Source of the DNA: Candidatus Kaiserbacteria bacterium
Lineage (GTDB): Bacteria; Patescibacteriota; Minisyncoccia; Phycocordibacterales; UBA2100
Assembly (NCBI GenBank): GCA_016217935.1
Contig: JACRFJ010000019.1
Span: 1-32,796 of the forward strand
Reading direction: 5' to 3'
DNA length: 32,796 bases
The notes under the pieces are model-generated. The model was given only the letters and a program-made list of their open reading frames with translations, was not told where the DNA came from and made no database searches. Made by a program: the position numbers and the translations under genes. How positions within the stretch are numbered: the first letter of the stretch is position 1; each line of letters starts with the position of its first letter. This document shows, in pieces, positions 1-9,286 of this stretch.

Positions 1-3000
1 ATCATCGAGCGTAAATGGCACGTACGGAGCCGGTGTTTCAGGTGGTGCAGGAGGTGCGATCGTGGGCGTTTCTGATCCTGGCGTTGCAACCGCAGGATTT
101 TCTACCGGAACGGTCGGGCCACTCGGCGTGTTCGCGATCTGCTCGGGACCGAAGGTTGTGTAACCAATCACGACTCCACTGAGACCAAGTATGAATCCGC
201 CAAGCGCATCTTTGAGATATGACTTTGGCCCGATAGATTCTGTAGGTCGTTCGCCCCCTGGCGGCGTGCCACCTCCGAAAATTCCGCGCGCACCGCCGCC
301 TGTATTGCCTCCGCCTCCTCCGCTGCCACTGCCTCCGCCAGCAAGTGGTCTTCGATCAGCAGGCCTCGTACCGCCTGATTCGGAGTACAAGTCAGCCACG
401 GTTGGTTCGGCAGATTTTTTGCCAAACATGCGCTCCCACGCTCGCTGCCAGAACGAGGGGACCGCGGCAATCGGTGCGGACGCGGGCGTTGGACTCTCTG
501 CCCCGACTGGAGGTGCGGTTTCAGATTCGTACAGATCAGCAACCGTGCGCTCTCTCGTCGGTGTCGGCTCCGCTGTATAGAGATCCGCGAGCGTGCGTTC
601 CGGCTCGGCGGGCACAGGTCTCGGCACGTACTCCATTTGTGCTTCCGTGAGCGTAATAATCTTCGTCGTATCGAGTGGATATACCGGCCAATTCATATCG
701 ACAAATTCTCCGCGCCCGGTCCAGCCTGCAGAATTGTAAACGGGTGTGAGAACCGGGGCTTCAACCGATGAAGGTGTTCCGCTCGGGATTTTTTGCATCG
801 CAACCCCATCGGATGTCACATACATCGTCGGCAGCGATTCCCCTGGACCTCGTGGCGAAGGTGCGCGTGCCGGAGGATTATGTGTCGCAAGAATGAGTGC
901 GCGATCGGGCGGCAGCGGTGTTATCGGCTGATACGTGGGCTCTGGCGCGGACGGAATTCGTGAAGTAATTGCATTCCACACGTTCTTGGGAACTTCCGCA
1001 AGTGTCTTCCCAATATTTTGCAGCCATGCGAGCTGTTCTTGTACTTCTGCTCCTTGCGCTGGAACTTCTATCAACGGTGTGGGAGGTACTGGTGGGATTT
1101 CTGATGCCGGAGTTGTTTCAGATGGATTGGTTGGCGTTTCCTCGCGCGGAGTTCCTGGCCGTATGGCGACCGGTACAATCGGTGGAACAGGATTTGGTGT
1201 TGGAGATATCGGCGCTTGCCGTGCAAGCTCGACACCGTGCGTGATCGAGGCCGCATACTCTTTTACACCCTGCCACGCATGCGCAATCCCCTCTCCAATT
1301 CTCTTCCAATTGGATAGGTCTTGCGCAGCGATCGCGTCGCGAATATCGCGCGTTAGCTGCTTGCCAGTGACTTCGACTGCATCTGGTGTAGGAATTCTTT
1401 CCGTGATTTCTGTCGTTCTTGAATTCTGTATATCCGGAAGCGGCCCACGCTCAATGGCAGCAGAGGGATTCGGCTGCTCTATATCCGATCCTCGATTCAC
1501 CGCAATCACTGGACTTCGCTGCTCAAAGAGAATCTGGAACGGTCTGTAATCGACGGTGAGCGTACCGCGTGCTCTCGAAAGAGCGCCTCGCAATTCCGCT
1601 ACCCGAGTAGTACGTTCTATACTTTCCGCCACTTCTTGCTGTGTCCGCGGTCCAAAGATTGGATAGGTGAGAGATTCCTGGGCAAGTTTCGTTTCCGCAT
1701 CTTTAAATAATTGCGCAAGATCTTCCTGCGTCTTCGGTCCATAGAGTCGATAGTCGAGCTCACGAGATGCGAGAGACTGCTCTAAAATGTTTGAAACCTG
1801 TTCTCCGTTCTTTGGTCCGAGCACTTTATAGTCGAGTGATTCTTGCGCAAGTTTTGTCTCGATCTTGCGATTCATAATTTCCACGTCTGCCTGACTTCTC
1901 GGTCCATACGTTCGATAATCCAACTCCTCCATTGCAAGTCTGAGTTCTTGTCTCAGAGTTTCTTCTGCCGCACGCTGCACCTCTTGAGTCAACTGCTCTC
2001 CTGATGGGAGTTCCGCTGTAGGCAGCCGTATGTCCACGTGCGTCGGACCGGTTGGTTGTGGGATCGCAGAGGCCGTGGACGCAAGAGGTGCTGAGGGTTG
2101 CGCAAGCGCTGGGCCAGCTGCTGGATTATCCCAGAGCGCCACAATCGCGCTTCGTAACTCTAGACTCAAATCTATTGGTTTACCTGCGGTGAGCGCTGGT
2201 GTGAGCTCTGCAATACGCGCAGGGACTGCAATTGGCCCAGCCGTCCACACAGGCGGAATATTGCTGTTGAGTATTGTTTGCATCCAGGCAGTACCGCGGG
2301 GAATGTTGGTGCCGTAGCCTCTCATTTGTTTCATCCTTACGAGCGCCTGCCGGAGTGTCGTCGCGCCGCAGATCTTGTTGTTGCACAGCGCGCGCAGCAC
2401 CGCGCGACCGAGCGGCTGGTCGAGATTAAGACCGTTCACGTTGAGCGATGGCGCAAGCTGTCCAGAAACCTGGATCAGGTATCCCTGTGTTCGAGGATCG
2501 CCAGGAGCAACCGCCTGAATGTTGCGAATCGGATAGAAGGTCTTCCCCCATTCAGGCGGGCCCATTTCCATATGCCGTGCGGCAAAGAGCCATGCGCCGT
2601 CGACTGGGTTGAATCGCGGATCCGCTGCTTTTGGATTTCGATCAATCCATGCACGTGTTCGCACGAGGACCTGATCGATCTTTTGCCGCTCGATTGGGGT
2701 GACCGCCGTCGAATTGCGAACTTTGATGAGATTATTGTATGCGGTCTCGGTCGTCAGACGACTGAGCTGCCCGAGTCCCTGGTACCTCGATCCCCTATGC
2801 GGCGTTGTGGGATTGCAGTGCGACTCCTGTACGCACGAAGCAGCTATCGCCTGTGCATAGGTAGTCCCATCGCATCCATATGCTTTGCAAACTACGACTG
2901 CGGCATGTGCGAGTTCCACTCCGACCCGGACATCGAGATCAAATGCGATATTGCGTTGCGGCACGATCCGTCGTGCTGCATTTGCGGGATTGAGCACAGC

Positions 3001-6000
3001 GTCAGCGAGGATTCCAGTCCCAATCGTTGCTGGCACGGTCATGGGACTGGTAAGCAGTGGGATACTCGCTGCAATAGCGCGGACGGAGTTCAGAATTGGA
3101 GATACCTGCTGCACTGGCGTCGGCGCAAGTGGAGTCTCGACCGGAATTGCTGCAGCAATTTTTAACTGTGACTCATTGAATGCTTTTGTCGTCTCCTGTT
3201 TGCCGCGCTCAAATAATTGGTCAATGTAACTCTTATCGACATATTCGGTCACGTCACCAAGATTCAGCTTATGAGTGTTGTAGTTGTAGAGTACGTCCGA
3301 GAGTACCGAGTCGCTGTTCTTGCCTGTGCCAAGTGCTTGCACACCGGTTCGTGCATGGAGATCTTCAGCAAGCTTGAACGCTTCAAGATTCGCCAAACGT
3401 TCGGAGCGCTCCGTCTCGTCGACGTAGGTCTTCTCAAGAGTTCGCATTCGCTGTTCCTGAACCGTAGTTAACCCTTGCGGGCTTTTCTTGATTTCCTCGA
3501 GCACTCCGATTTGCTTGACAGTAGAAATTAGCACGTCGCTGCGATTTCTGGCGTGCCCTATCTCGTGGAGGACATCCCGCAAAAATAGCGGTTCGTGTGG
3601 TGACGTCGCAATCATGACACACTGATTCTCCCAGTCGCATGCGTTTTCGCGATCTCTAACAAATGTGTATCCCTTCGGCAAGAATTCCGTGATGTCCGTG
3701 TCTCCTACGTACACTTTCACAGATTCGTCGGGCTTTATCGCCATAACGATTTCCGGTGCTACCTGCGCTGGGGTTCCCGGAGTAGCCAGCGCAACAGGAT
3801 CCCACCATCTCGCAGGAGCAGAAACGACTATATCGTCCGGCGTTATCGCACGCGTGAGCGATGGTGCAGGTCTTGTCGGGACCGAAGATGGTGCTGGGAT
3901 TGAAAGCTCAGGTGTGGGCGCGAGAGCCACTTTTGCAAAACGCGTCTGCGGCTCTTCTTTCAGGACTGCTTTTGCCTCAGCGATTGTATCTTCGGTCGGA
4001 GCGAGGGATTGCGGTACCGCATACGGAGCAGCGCCAGGTACTTGAACAGGAAGAGGATATGCGACCGGATCTTTGGTGTCCGCTCGCACAATTACCCCAT
4101 CTGTCGGTCGCTGCGTAAGTCCGGCTTCAGCAAGACCCTTGAATGCTTCAGAGACTCGCTCTGCATTTTTTGTTTCTCGATACGCGGCGAGGTCTGGGTC
4201 GACTGTAGGAGCTGTTGGCTGCGAGAAATTCGCAAGCGCCGTATTAAAATTGCTAATCGCGAGCGCCTCAGTTGGAGAGAGAGGGTCAGGCGAGACAGTT
4301 TCTTTTGGACCGAACAAAAAATCACGAATGTTCTGGAACAAACCACTTTCTCGTGCAAGGCTAGCGGCAGGCACCGAAGGAGTCTCTCCGATCGGTGGAG
4401 TTGCATCGACCGGTCGGAGAGCCGGTACATCCCCAACGGGTGCGGGCTTCATTTCGAAGAGCGGAATCTGGAGCTCCGGTTCTCGTAGCGCAATGCGCGG
4501 ACTTTCCGGCGTGGGTGCGGGTTCTGCAGAACGAACTGGTTGCGCCGCCGGTGTTTCTGAAATTGGAGACGCGGTATGTTCAATCGGTGCAATAGGTTCG
4601 ACCGGGCGAGCAGCTGGGCTCTCAGGAACAATGGGTGGACTTTCAACGACCTTGACACCTGCGCGCTCGGCGATCGTTTCTGGGGCAGGAATCCCGAGTC
4701 GCTCCTGTGCCCATGTGGGTAGTTGTGTTTCTGGGATACCTGCTGTTCTATACGTTTCTCTCAAACCCTGCGCCACCTGAGTTTCGGCATCAGTAATAAC
4801 GCTTCGCCCTGCGGTAACCGCTGCATCATACGGAATAAGTGCGCGCGACACAGGAATCGGCTCAACTGATGCAAGCGGAACTTCGGTGCTCAGCGGCCCT
4901 GGCAGATTACCAGTTACTTTGATCGCGGCTCCCGCTTCCGGAGCTCCGGCGAGACCGTATACACCGGGTCGAATTTGTGTAAATTCGAGATCGGTGGCAC
5001 GCGTGCCAAAATCGGACGCGATCCTCCCTTCGATTCCCGTAAGTGCCTCACCGGCGATGCCTCGAAGCCCCATAAAAGGTTGTGCAATTATTGTTGCGTT
5101 CAGCGCTGTGAATGCCACATCGTTTCCGTAATCAAAAAAGCGCTGAGTCGGTGAATCTGAGATGCGTGCAAGCTGCACCGAGGGCGGGGGTTCTCCAAGT
5201 ACTCCGAGAGCGGGGTTTACTACAGCCGAGCCAACATAGGCGCCGATCTTCGAGAGTACGCCATATTCCGAGAGCGGAGCATTCTGAACCTTGTGCAGGT
5301 ATTCCGCAAACTCATGTGCTGGAGCGAATATACCTGTATTGCCCGCGATGGAATCAAGCGTGTTCTCCACGCGCGGTTCCATGCGCTTGAGTCCAAGTAA
5401 TTGATCGATTGTATCGTTGCCACGATTAATCGGGTCAATATAGGCTTCGTGATTCCAATTGTAAAAACTGTCTCCCAAGAACCGACTGAACTTACTGTCA
5501 ACGCTTTCATTGTTCTCGTACCGAGCGAGACGCGTTTGCTCATCGGTGAGTTTCAATACTTCTTGAATGAGCGCTGTCTTTGTCGGGTCTCCCCCGTGAA
5601 TCATTGTGTCGGCAAATGTGTCTCCGCGAACGTCGGTGAGCATGAAGCTGATCAATTTTTCGTTCGTGGTGATCTTTTTTTCCAACTCTTCATTTTCTCG
5701 CCTGAGAAACTCGTTACGCTGACCTTCTTCAGGCGTATACCCTTTGAAGGTTTCTCTGTTTGCGTCAAATCGTGCTTTAACATCGGCCGCAATCTTATCG
5801 ATCTCCTGCTGATTGTTGTAAAGTCTCTCTTGTGCATCTAGTTTTGAATTTTGAAACGCATCGAACATTTTTGTCGATCCGGGAAGCTCACTGTATTGGG
5901 TTACCAGTTTGTTGAATTCGCCGACGTCATCTTTCAATTGTGATCGCAAGAGATCGTTTGAAATAGTCTCTGTTTTTAGGGCGTTATACGCATTGAGCGA

Positions 6001-7167
6001 ATTATTCGTCAACTGTCGGTATGCGTTTACATCCTCTTGTTTCCCAAAGGTAAGCTTTCCATCCGTATCAACGGCAACGATGTTTCTATCGCGAAACTGA
6101 ATTCGCCCTGCTTCAATACGCTCTGCTTCTTTCGCGAGTCTCTCTAATTCGGTATTGGACTTTTGGATACGTTCGATCACGGGATCTATCTGATTATTCT
6201 TGATTTCCTCCATCTCTTTCCGCAATGTATCCGCGGATGGTCCTTGAAGATCCGCACGTGGGATTTCGTTGCGCGGCACTGGCTTGTCCTCGGATGGCGG
6301 GGCTGGAGGAGGATTTTGTGGAGCCTCGGGATTCGTGGGCGCCGGCGGGATTGATGGAGGACGTGTAAAGTAATCGACAAGTGCTGATTTGATGTTTCCG
6401 GTAAATTCTTTTACGTTCCCCAACCAACTGTTTTCTTTTGGCACAAAACTCCCACCCACTGGTGTCTCAGCACCCCCGATGGGATTGTTCGTAAATGTGC
6501 TGCCAGAAATTGGGGTTGTTTGTGTAGAAACTGGTTTTGTTTCTCCAAGTGCATCGGGGACTTGCGAAGGTGGGGTGAGCTGCGACGGAGTGCTTCCGTT
6601 TGGGAATGAGATGAGGTCGCGGAAGGTTTGGCTGACATCTTTTTTCAATTCCTGGAAAAAACCTGGTTGTGGTGAATCTTTTATGGTCTGTTCGAAATTC
6701 GTTGCCGAAGGAGGCGTTGGTTTCTGCTCGGCAATTGGAGTGGGGTTGAAAAGCGCCTGATCCCACATCGAGGTCTGCGGTGTCGGCTGTGTCGTGGGGC
6801 TCGTGGTCTGAGGAATGATTGGGCACGGCCCGCCCACACAGTTTTGCTTTTGCTCAGTCGTCGCTTGCTTGGGTGTTTCGCCCTCTGCAGTTTGCGTCGC
6901 CATGCACTGCAAAGGCTTTACACACGTCCCTTTGACTGTTTTTCCATTCGATATTTCATCGCAGACGCATCCTTTACCTCCGATCTTGCCTGTCTCTTTG
7001 CCACTTGCATCCTTCTCTTTCTCACCGCACTTCACCGTATAGACCCACGCGGCCCGACAATCGGAATTGTATGTAATCGTTTGCGCTCTGAGGAGCGCAG
7101 GTACCAGAATGAGGGAAAAACAAATCGCTCCAACGAGAAAAAGAGGCGCGGTGTAGGCGCGATTCAT
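1..7167 (-). CDS. Giant secreted/surface multidomain protein, C-terminus beyond window edge (at least 2389 aa)
   Basis: Reading the minus strand from ATG at 7167-7165 (preceded by in-frame TGA) I found no stop in this frame to position 1. N-terminus MNRAYTAPLFLVGAICFSLILVPALLRAQTITYNSDC looks like a Sec signal peptide. HEIGH (codon top 3567) and ESHCN (codon top 2826) are in the same frame as the ATG. Absent from the ORF track because no stop lies inside the window. Confidence 0.9.
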   Translation of the reverse strand, partial: MNRAYTAPLFLVGAICFSLILVPALLRAQTITYNSDCRAAWVYTVKCGEKEKDASGKETGKIGGKGCVCDEISNGKTVKGTCVKPLQCMATQTAEGETPKQATTEQKQNCVGGPCPIIPQTTSPTTQPTPQTSMWDQALFNPTPIAEQKPTPPSATNFEQTIKDSPQPGFFQELKKDVSQTFRDLISFPNGSTPSQLTPPSQVPDALGETKPVSTQTTPISGSTFTNNPIGGAETPVGGSFVPKENSWLGNVKEFTGNIKSALVDYFTRPPSIPPAPTNPEAPQNPPPAPPSEDKPVPRNEIPRADLQGPSADTLRKEMEEIKNNQIDPVIERIQKSNTELERLAKEAERIEAGRIQFRDRNIVAVDTDGKLTFGKQEDVNAYRQLTNNSLNAYNALKTETISNDLLRSQLKDDVGEFNKLVTQYSELPGSTKMFDAFQNSKLDAQERLYNNQQEIDKIAADVKARFDANRETFKGYTPEEGQRNEFLRRENEELEKKITTNEKLISFMLTDVRGDTFADTMIHGGDPTKTALIQEVLKLTDEQTRLARYENNESVDSKFSRFLGDSFYNWNHEAYIDPINRGNDTIDQLLGLKRMEPRVENTLDSIAGNTGIFAPAHEFAEYLHKVQNAPLSEYGVLSKIGAYVGSAVVNPALGVLGEPPPSVQLARISDSPTQRFFDYGNDVAFTALNATIIAQPFMGLRGIAGEALTGIEGRIASDFGTRATDLEFTQIRPGVYGLAGAPEAGAAIKVTGNLPGPLSTEVPLASVEPIPVSRALIPYDAAVTAGRSVITDAETQVAQGLRETYRTAGIPETQLPTWAQERLGIPAPETIAERAGVKVVESPPIVPESPAARPVEPIAPIEHTASPISETPAAQPVRSAEPAPTPESPRIALREPELQIPLFEMKPAPVGDVPALRPVDATPPIGETPSVPAASLARESGLFQNIRDFLFGPKETVSPDPLSPTEALAISNFNTALANFSQPTAPTVDPDLAAYRETKNAERVSEAFKGLAEAGLTQRPTDGVIVRADTKDPVAYPLPVQVPGAAPYAVPQSLAPTEDTIAEAKAVLKEEPQTRFAKVALAPTPELSIPAPSSVPTRPAPSLTRAITPDDIVVSAPARWWDPVALATPGTPAQVAPEIVMAIKPDESVKVYVGDTDITEFLPKGYTFVRDRENACDWENQCVMIATSPHEPLFLRDVLHEIGHARNRSDVLISTVKQIGVLEEIKKSPQGLTTVQEQRMRTLEKTYVDETERSERLANLEAFKLAEDLHARTGVQALGTGKNSDSVLSDVLYNYNTHKLNLGDVTEYVDKSYIDQLFERGKQETTKAFNESQLKIAAAIPVETPLAPTPVQQVSPILNSVRAIAASIPLLTSPMTVPATIGTGILADAVLNPANAARRIVPQRNIAFDLDVRVGVELAHAAVVVCKAYGCDGTTYAQAIAASCVQESHCNPTTPHRGSRYQGLGQLSRLTTETAYNNLIKVRNSTAVTPIERQKIDQVLVRTRAWIDRNPKAADPRFNPVDGAWLFAARHMEMGPPEWGKTFYPIRNIQAVAPGDPRTQGYLIQVSGQLAPSLNVNGLNLDQPLGRAVLRALCNNKICGATTLRQALVRMKQMRGYGTNIPRGTAWMQTILNSNIPPVWTAGPIAVPARIAELTPALTAGKPIDLSLELRSAIVALWDNPAAGPALAQPSAPLASTASAIPQPTGPTHVDIRLPTAELPSGEQLTQEVQRAAEETLRQELRLAMEELDYRTYGPRSQADVEIMNRKIETKLAQESLDYKVLGPKNGEQVSNILEQSLASRELDYRLYGPKTQEDLAQLFKDAETKLAQESLTYPIFGPRTQQEVAESIERTTRVAELRGALSRARGTLTVDYRPFQILFEQRSPVIAVNRGSDIEQPNPSAAIERGPLPDIQNSRTTEITERIPTPDAVEVTGKQLTRDIRDAIAAQDLSNWKRIGEGIAHAWQGVKEYAASITHGVELARQAPISPTPNPVPPIVPVAIRPGTPREETPTNPSETTPASEIPPVPPTPLIEVPAQGAEVQEQLAWLQNIGKTLAEVPKNVWNAITSRIPSAPEPTYQPITPLPPDRALILATHNPPARAPSPRGPGESLPTMYVTSDGVAMQKIPSGTPSSVEAPVLTPVYNSAGWTGRGEFVDMNWPVYPLDTTKIITLTEAQMEYVPRPVPAEPERTLADLYTAEPTPTRERTVADLYESETAPPVGAESPTPASAPIAAVPSFWQRAWERMFGKKSAEPTVADLYSESGGTRPADRRPLAGGGSGSGGGGGNTGGGARGIFGGGTPPGGERPTESIGPKSYLKDALGGFILGLSGVVIGYTTFGPEQIANTPSGPTVPVENPAVATPGSETPTIAPPAPPETPAPYVPFTLDD
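380..597 (-). repeat. Three [LV]ADLY short linear motifs in the giant protein
   Basis: RTLADLYTAE, RTVADLYESE and PTVADLYSES at roughly 568-597, 519-547 and 380-402, upstream of a Gly-rich tract. Confidence 0.7.
1630..1923 (-). repeat. Four in-frame protein repeats LxYxxxGP[RK]xxxx[VL], about 26-29 aa period
   Basis: LDYRTYGPRSQADV (1882-1923), LDYKVLGPKNGEQV (1795-1836), LDYRLYGPKTQEDL (~1717-1759), LTYPIFGPRTQQEV (1630-1671), with linkers ETKLAQES in two copies. Confidence 0.8.
2569..2886 (-). other. Lysozyme/lytic-transglycosylase (SLT)-like segment inside the giant protein
   Basis: Translation YGCDGTTYAQAIAASCVQESHCNPTTPHRGSRYQGLGQLS...NPVDGAWLFAARHM resembles the catalytic-Glu 'ES..N' and 'GL.Q' motifs of the SLT/lysozyme superfamily. 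Confidence 0.55.
3328..3600 (-). other. HExxH metallopeptidase-like segment inside the giant protein
   Basis: Translation PHEPLFLRDVLHEIGHARNRSD...DETERSERLANLEAFKLAEDLH; HEIGH at 3553-3567 followed by an acidic helix that could supply a third zinc ligand. Confidence 0.6.
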
Positions 7168-7267: not shown

Positions 7268-8917
7268 CTAGTAATCCTCCCCCATTCCCCCCGGCATACC
7301 TCCTGCCGCCGGTTTCTTTTCTTCAGGGATATCTGCAATCGCGGCTTCGGTCGTGAGCAAGACTGCGGCGGCAGACGCTGCATTCTCTACTCCTGATCGT
7401 GTGACTTTCACCGGATCGATGATCCCCGCTTCGTACATGTCAACAATATGCTCCGCATCACCTTCGTGCGCGGCATTGAATCCGAACGCTCCGCCCTTTT
7501 TTACAACATCTTGCAGAATCACCGCACCATCTTCGCGTCCGGCGTTCTTTGCAATCTGGAGGAGTGGTGCGTTCAGCGCACTGAGGAGTATGCGGTAGCC
7601 AATCGTGTATTCATCGTGCGCATCGCCTTTCACTTTCTTCGCGAGTGCGTGTGAGACTTTGGCAAGCGCGGCACCTCCGCCCGGGACGATACCCTCGGCG
7701 ATCGCAGCTTTCGTCGCGTGAACGGCGTCCTCGATTTTGTCTTTGAGGTATTTCATTTCCGTTTCGGTCGCAGCGCCCACTTTGATGACCGCGACTCCAC
7801 CCGTCAGCTTCGCGATGCGTTCATCGAGTTTCTCTTTGTCGAATTTTGAATCAGTGTTTGCGGATTGGGTGCGCAGACTCGCAACCCGCGCTTCGATATC
7901 AGCTTTCTTGCCTTTTCCCCCGACGATAACCGTCGAATCTTTCGTGGCAACGACACGTTGCGCGCGTCCGAGCATATTAATCTCGGCGGTCTCAAGTTTG
8001 AGTCCCACATCTTCCGAGATCACTTGCCCTCCTGTCATGATCGCGATATCAGCGAGAATTTCTTTTTTGCGATCGCCATATCCCGGTGCTTTCACCGCGA
8101 GCACGTTGAATGATCCGCGCAACTTATTGACGATGAATGTCGCGAGCGCTTCGCCGTCGACATCGTCTGCGATAATGACGAGATCTTTCTTGCCTGCCTG
8201 CGCAACTTTTTCAAGAAGCGGCAGAATATCTTTGATCGTTGAGATCTTTTTATCGGTGATGAGGATCGGCGCGTCTTTCATCTCAGCCTCCATGCGCTCC
8301 GCATTCGTAATGAGATACGCGGAAACGTATCCTTTGTCGAATTCCATTCCCTCGACAAAATCGCTCTCGATCCCGATTGACTGTGACTCTTCGACAGTAA
8401 CGACGCCGTCCTTACCGACCTTCTCGACAATATCCGCGATCGTTTTCCCAAGCTCTTCGCTTTCAGCTGAAATCATCGCGACTTGTCGTGTGTCAATCTT
8501 CCCTTTGATTGGCTTTGCCATCTTCCGCAATTCCGCGACCGCATCGCGTGCCGCAGCTTCGATACCGCGGCGCACCATCATCGCGTTTGCTCCCATTGCG
8601 GTGCGTTTCAAACCTTCGTGCACGATTGCTTCGGTGAGTACTACTGCGGTCGTCGTACCGTCGCCCGCCTTATCATTGGTTTTGTTGGCGACTTCTTTCA
8701 CGATCGACGCACCCATGTCTTCAAATTTGTCGGCGAGCGTGATTTCTTTCGCAATCGAGACCCCGTCGTTGGTAATCGTCGGACCTCCCCAAGATTTGCT
8801 GATAGCGACGTTGCGGCCCTTGGGACCAAGCGTGACTTTAACTGCGCACGCAACGATATCAACACCGCGCTTGAGCGCAGAGCGCACCTGTTCGTCAAAA
8901 AGTACTTGTTTTGCCAT
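7268..8917 (-). CDS. groEL: 60 kDa chaperonin GroEL
   Basis: [59 protein letters not shown]...; C-terminal [11 protein letters not shown]. Confidence 0.98.
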
Positions 8918-8956: not shown

Positions 8957-9286
8957 TTATCTAATAATTGCTAATATATCCGACTCTTTGACCAAGAAAT
9001 ACTCCTCGCCGTCTTCTCCCATGTTCACTTCATTGTCCCAGCCGGCATTAAAGACGACTTTTGCTCCCACCCCGATAGCCATGGGAATGATCTTGCCATC
9101 ATCGTTGATACGCCCCGGGCCGACCGCAATGACGATACCAATTTTTGATTTCTCTTTTGCCGCGGTGTCAGGAATGATGATCCCTGCGGGAGATTTTTTG
9201 TCCGGTGCGTCTTCGCGTTTTACCAATACCCTGTCGGCCACTGGCTGAAGATTCATTTTCTTCGTTTTCTTTGCGTCTTTCGCCAT
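8957..9286 (-). CDS. groES: 10 kDa co-chaperonin GroES
   Basis: NLQPVADRVLVKREDAPDKKSPAGIIIPDTAAKEKSKIGIVIAVGPG...; directly upstream of groEL. Confidence 0.96.
   Translation of the reverse strand: MAKDAKKTKKMNLQPVADRVLVKREDAPDKKSPAGIIIPDTAAKEKSKIGIVIAVGPGRINDDGKIIPMAIGVGAKVVFNAGWDNEVNMGEDGEEYFLVKESDILAIIR

Follow-up and report, generated by a model that had tools for sequence, protein, structure and literature searches.

The window, by which we mean the whole 32,796-nucleotide stretch analysed, corresponds to contig C2 in its entirety, from a 764-kb genome in 47 contigs. At one edge, groES and groEL are followed on the same strand by a gene for a giant secreted protein that runs off the contig. 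The features referred to below are as follows.

8957..9286 (-), groES, which precedes groEL
7268..8917 (-), groEL, a conserved gene that flanks the hotspot
1..7167 (-), gene for a giant secreted protein, 2389 codons or more, its 3' end lying beyond the contig
7078..7167 (-), signal peptide, residues ~1-30 (MNR, hydrophobic core, LRA|Q), with similar N-termini in relatives
6823..7077 (-), Cys-rich N-terminal module, residues ~31-115; C69, G80, C82 and C88 invariant in 18 proteins
6268..6867 (-), Pro-rich linker by composition, residues ~101-300, 17-20% Pro
5368..6270 (-), charged, low-Pro, putative coiled-coil region, residues ~300-600, from composition only
3133..3750 (-), HExxH metallopeptidase-like segment, residues 1140-1345, from similarity to a stand-alone protein
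3553..3567 (-), HEIGH motif, residues 1201-1205
2224..2940 (-), GH23/SLT-like segment and putative lytic transglycosylase, residues 1410-1648
2824..2826 (-), predicted catalytic Glu, residue 1448, invariant in 7/7 homologues
1644..1923 (-), four copies of a 26-29-residue repeat, LDYRxYGPxxQ...
223..360 (-), Gly-rich hinge (approximate)
151..207 (-), weak hydrophobic segment, residues 2321-2339, mean hydropathy 1.62

The giant gene stays open in one frame over 2389 codons, from an ATG to contig position 1, where it runs off without having met a stop, as the preliminary description had claimed; its spacing from the groEL stop, given there as 100 bp, was measured as exactly 100 nt. At the composition of the window, a random open run of this length has a probability of about 1e-44, and the GC content by codon position (62/49/50%) is compatible with coding. 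Comparison with Pfam, NCBIfam and PHROGs gave no match over cut-off (a hit to Csx26 of NCBIfam, E 0.046 and 13.5 bits where the cut-off is 50, was taken as chance), and a search of 41 genomes with the whole protein gave no match at E<=0.001 beyond its genus. When the window's own genome was searched for the missing C-terminus, neither lemA nor htpX was found; the assembly gap at position 1 therefore probably covers the end of the giant gene plus both of these genes. Assemblies L035, L042 and L094 also break within or just past the giant gene, and such breaks could stem from variation between strains at this locus.

The protein exceeds 1000 residues and carries a signal peptide. This peptide, the Cys-rich N-terminus, the Pro-rich linkers, the Gly-rich stretch, the repeats, the HExxH and the lysozyme-like segment had all been proposed from a first reading of the DNA, and each is present; two related copies of the repeat also occur in the giant of genome G004. 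The proposed coiled coils were judged from composition alone, with which the charged, low-Pro region is compatible. The hydrophobic segment near the contig edge exists, but it is borderline and weaker than had been claimed, and is absent from most relatives' giants. The available part of the protein, which lacks the C-terminus, shows no clear anchor, and retention at the surface is a tentative suggestion.

Residues 1410-1648 are homologous to segments of six other large open reading frames in the genus, three of which lie directly after groEL. The alignment of these seven divergent sequences keeps E49, G65, Q68, P118, G125, Q171 and P174 of the segment. The motif in the window protein is ES..N..YQGxGQ; the Glu (E1448) is followed by Ser in 6/7 sequences and by Thr in the remaining one, and the second, GLMQ-like motif retains its Gly and Gln throughout (GLGQ, GFGQ, GLFQ, GLAQ, GIGQ, GLPQ). 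The combination ES...GLxQ is the signature of GH23 lytic transglycosylases. An AlphaFold model of the segment is confident and all-helical (pLDDT 83, pTM 0.82) and locates the predicted catalytic Glu at the end of helix 35-50. The best 12 Foldseek matches in the PDB are all Escherichia coli MltE (probability 0.57-0.95, TM 0.36-0.47), followed further down by Pseudomonas aeruginosa Slt and a GH23-type chitinase. The E-values are not significant (best 0.09, TM about 0.45), which makes a lysozyme-like, GH23 fold likely rather than proven, and nothing relevant came up when PDB sequences were queried with the SLT alignment. As no family profile matches over cut-off, we name the segment GH23-like and do not place it in the GH23/SLT family.

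The HExxH segment resembles a stand-alone Paceibacteria protein, with 36% identity over 56 residues including HEIGHA (E=1e-5). Its fold model, built from two sequences, has a pLDDT of 48, and a downstream Glu is a candidate for the third zinc ligand. Apart from G398, weak class-wide matches to this segment were taken as chance; the three inspected by eye were gyrase-like, solute-binding and helicase-like proteins.

The order groES-groEL-lemA-htpX is conserved. The named relatives that share the window's flanking genes are Candidatus Kaiserbacteria (Paceibacteria), to which the window's organism belongs as well. We read the stretch after groEL in 45 genomes of the genus, in 34 of which lemA lies downstream on the same contig. 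The site is empty in 12 of these 34, where lemA follows groEL after ~0.1-0.8 kb. The other 22 carry one to three open reading frames of 308 to 4137 residues in the gap, each with a signal peptide or an N-terminal hydrophobic stretch and with Cys residues soon after it. Six more genomes, including that of the window, are occupied and their sequence ends before lemA (one frame has at least 4470 residues), giving 28 occupied genomes; the remaining 5/45 are unresolved or rearranged. The search of relatives for giants adjoining groEL that the preliminary description had suggested thus found secreted genes there in 28 Kaiserbacteria genomes.

That description had also noted that homologues split into several separate genes would argue against a single giant. 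Where two or three giants are consecutive, they are not pieces of one split gene, since every one of them begins with a signal peptide or a hydrophobic N-terminal stretch of its own. A frameshift or split-gene artefact was likewise rejected, since the window frame is continuous and at least one frame over 1000 residues is found in 17/22 occupied complete intervals. Two neighbourhoods differ in content: in G007 a REP-associated transposase-like protein (by eye; L037:1820-2527) separates groEL from three consecutive giants, and in G015 (L039) a subtilase-like gene (by eye) on the opposite strand follows groEL, and a 1258-residue Ig/SdrD/SpaA-type surface protein replaces the typical giant.

No giant was found after groEL in the more distant Paceibacteria L108, L110-L113, L115 and L143, all of which retain groEL-lemA-htpX. 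With these outgroup sites empty, the giants were most simply gained within the Kaiserbacteria lineage and then lost or re-gained. Their presence on the GroEL tree is patchy (8 changes against a mean of 9.7 in shuffles).

The giants themselves are hypervariable. G436 and G454 have GroEL proteins that are 95.2% identical, yet the alignment of their giants covers 15% and has 33% identity. G008 and G017 (GroEL 92.9%) have giants without any alignment, although the G008 protein has just 308 residues. Among 406 genome pairs, 307 lack any alignment of their giants, and only one pair aligns over half. What the giants have in common are modules: the Cys-rich N-terminus, Ig-like (TxTV) or endolysin-type C-termini, and internal domains at shifting places. 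A profile of the N-terminal module finds it in 45/52 genomes of the genus, in 0/18 family genomes of other genera and in 0/~380 others in the class. This module has a second recurrent carrier, a secreted protein of 400-550 residues right after polA-holA (G000:C40:4-132; L167:1054-2292 in G447; L032:8230-9600 in G007), which in several genomes is encoded on the same strand as virB4, ~12-23 kb away. The giants of L036, L063, L066, L070 and L049 form a group that, in place of an Ig-like end, carries at the C-terminus or close to it a shared Y-GT--QN--LL motif or a match to endolysin-family/DUF3597. In the giant of at least 4470 residues (L075:5391-18801, G442), residues 3659-3971 match an intein splicing domain (Pfam E=5e-16); an intein inside a secreted giant would be unusual.

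Pfam domains in the positional homologues are DPBB_1 (RlpA), Amidase_2, Peptidase_M15_3 and PG_binding_1. With a small iterative local profile that extends the Pfam set, and of which the G452_2 and G433 members are marginal, RlpA-type DPBB domains were found in 12 giants of 11 genomes; the GH23-like domain occurs in the hotspot giants of four genomes, the window's included. The two types never occur together in the hotspot giants of one genome among the 28 occupied. Endolysin-family matches lie toward the C-terminus in three further genomes, and one genome has PG_binding_1 only. Overall, 19/28 occupied genomes have a wall-related domain (15/28 of the lytic-transglycosylase type) and 9/28 have no recognisable wall domain. 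What recurs is a job rather than a sequence: the proteins are secreted, very long and apparently able to bind or cut peptidoglycan, and two unrelated lytic-transglycosylase types take each other's place. The catalytic-Glu motif, the AlphaFold model with its MltE matches, and the Pfam domains of the relatives suggest that the window protein, too, may act on peptidoglycan.

It is conceivable, but improbable, that the giants instead form a fibrous coat that attaches to surfaces, their enzyme-like domains being wall anchors or degenerate. Ig-like C-termini, PG_binding_1 and repeats would suit such a role, and in Vampirococcus lugosii giant proteins have been associated with host attachment and with a surface that is fibrous (PMC8080830). 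Against it, the predicted catalytic Glu is invariant across the GH23-like set, and the RlpA domains of several giants retain the NDRGP..GRxIDL core.

We consider slightly better than even the chance that the window encodes a secreted giant of modular build that acts on peptidoglycan and belongs to a diversifying Kaiserbacteria locus, with a probable use on the wall of a host or neighbour. The signal peptide and Cys-rich module would export the protein, the Pro-rich and helical spacers would hold its working domains apart, and the GH23-like putative lytic transglycosylase and the zinc-peptidase-like segment would have peptidoglycan at the cell surface as their substrate. Between groEL and lemA-htpX, at an insertion site specific to Kaiserbacteria, giants would have come and gone repeatedly and been reassembled through domain shuffling, with RlpA-type and GH23-like enzymes interchangeable there. 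Most likely this tiny, probably host-dependent bacterium would use the protein to open, or take hold of, a host's or neighbour's wall locally. The preliminary description had proposed a cell-surface machine for contact with a host or neighbour; what stands is a giant, secreted, multidomain protein of the Patescibacteria that is adjacent to groEL in relatives. Its domain content points to the processing of peptidoglycan, and the hypervariability of the locus and its restriction to the genus fit contact with other cells.

RlpA- and SLT-type enzymes usually work on the cell's own wall. The giants could accordingly be murein hydrolases and wall scaffolds for the cell's own division and separation, their divergence stemming from unconstrained linker that makes up most of their length; the fast evolution of Pro-rich linkers and the stable position beside conserved housekeeping genes agree with this. 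We nevertheless regard it as rather unlikely. The giants are dispensable, given the empty sites in 12/34 linked genomes and in the outgroups, their distribution on the GroEL tree is patchy, and the enzymatic domains, not just the linkers, are exchanged between unrelated folds. We infer that dispensability, patchiness and hypervariability fit changing partners better than maintenance of the own wall.

A role as a VirB1-like accessory that clears peptidoglycan for the channel of the Patescibacteria type IV secretion system (T4SS) seems very improbable. VirB1-type hydrolases are reported with this system, and monoderm VirB1 proteins typically combine SLT with a peptidase (PMC12102498), but the size and hypervariability of the giants are unlike VirB1. 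The earlier proposal to look downstream for pilus or secretion genes met with a negative answer, none being seen beside the giant. In the window's genome, virB4 lies on a different contig (G000:C40), and in G443, G447 and G024, where both genes are on one contig, it is 210-277 kb from groEL. We consequently rejected T4SS membership, the virB4 cluster being too distant. As regards polymorphic toxins of the CDI or Rhs type, complete relatives often have an Ig-like or endolysin-type module in common at their C-termini (that of the window protein lies beyond the contig), and lemA often follows the giants so closely in complete relatives that it leaves no room for an immunity gene.

Returning to the action on foreign walls that we favour, the spot between groEL and lemA appears to be a rapidly changing gene site that serves interaction with other cells. 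More speculatively, and with distinctly less confidence, the interval might be a host-range locus, in which each giant would open the wall of a particular host by means of an exchangeable lytic transglycosylase and would be replaced or rebuilt, as hosts change, by recombination on the Kaiserbacteria-specific N- and C-terminal modules.

What is new here is the groEL-lemA-htpX site that variably holds secreted giants in Kaiserbacteria; we found no description of it in the open-access literature searched. For the question of how most Patescibacteria attach to and open their hosts, and of who these hosts are, the locus gives a direct way in: every assembled Kaiserbacteria genome can be inspected for it, its content can be set against the hosts that co-occur, and its domains can be tested one at a time. 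The swapping of unrelated lytic-transglycosylase folds at one position would be an unusually clear functional replacement within a giant protein.

The GH23-like segment shares with MltE and Slt the catalytic-Glu helix and the ES..NP...GLxQ motif, and these are its best fold matches; it differs in falling below the Pfam cut-off, in a fold E-value of 0.09 and in being part of a ~10-fold larger protein. RlpA-type DPBB lytic transglycosylases are found in the positional homologues but are absent from the window protein. The T4SS wall hydrolases of the VirB1/PrgK/TraG type likewise combine SLT with a second hydrolase and are secreted, whereas the giant lies outside the virB4 cluster, is far larger and is hypervariable. 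A gene module of Thermococcales is also a hypervariable locus with a large Ig-domain protein (PMC8416519). We compare it by description, and it is archaeal, whereas wall enzymes dominate the Kaiserbacteria locus and lemA-htpX lie downstream. For Vampirococcus lugosii, a predator of the CPR, the available portion of the published account lists predicted giant surface proteins of 1392-4163 residues with WD40, TRP and PKD domains, and secreted murein hydrolases as separate proteins (PMC8080830). That portion describes no fixed hotspot or positional hypervariability, and the lineage is distant; yet both organisms belong to the CPR and encode giant predicted surface or secreted proteins as well as murein hydrolases, putative ones in the case of the window.
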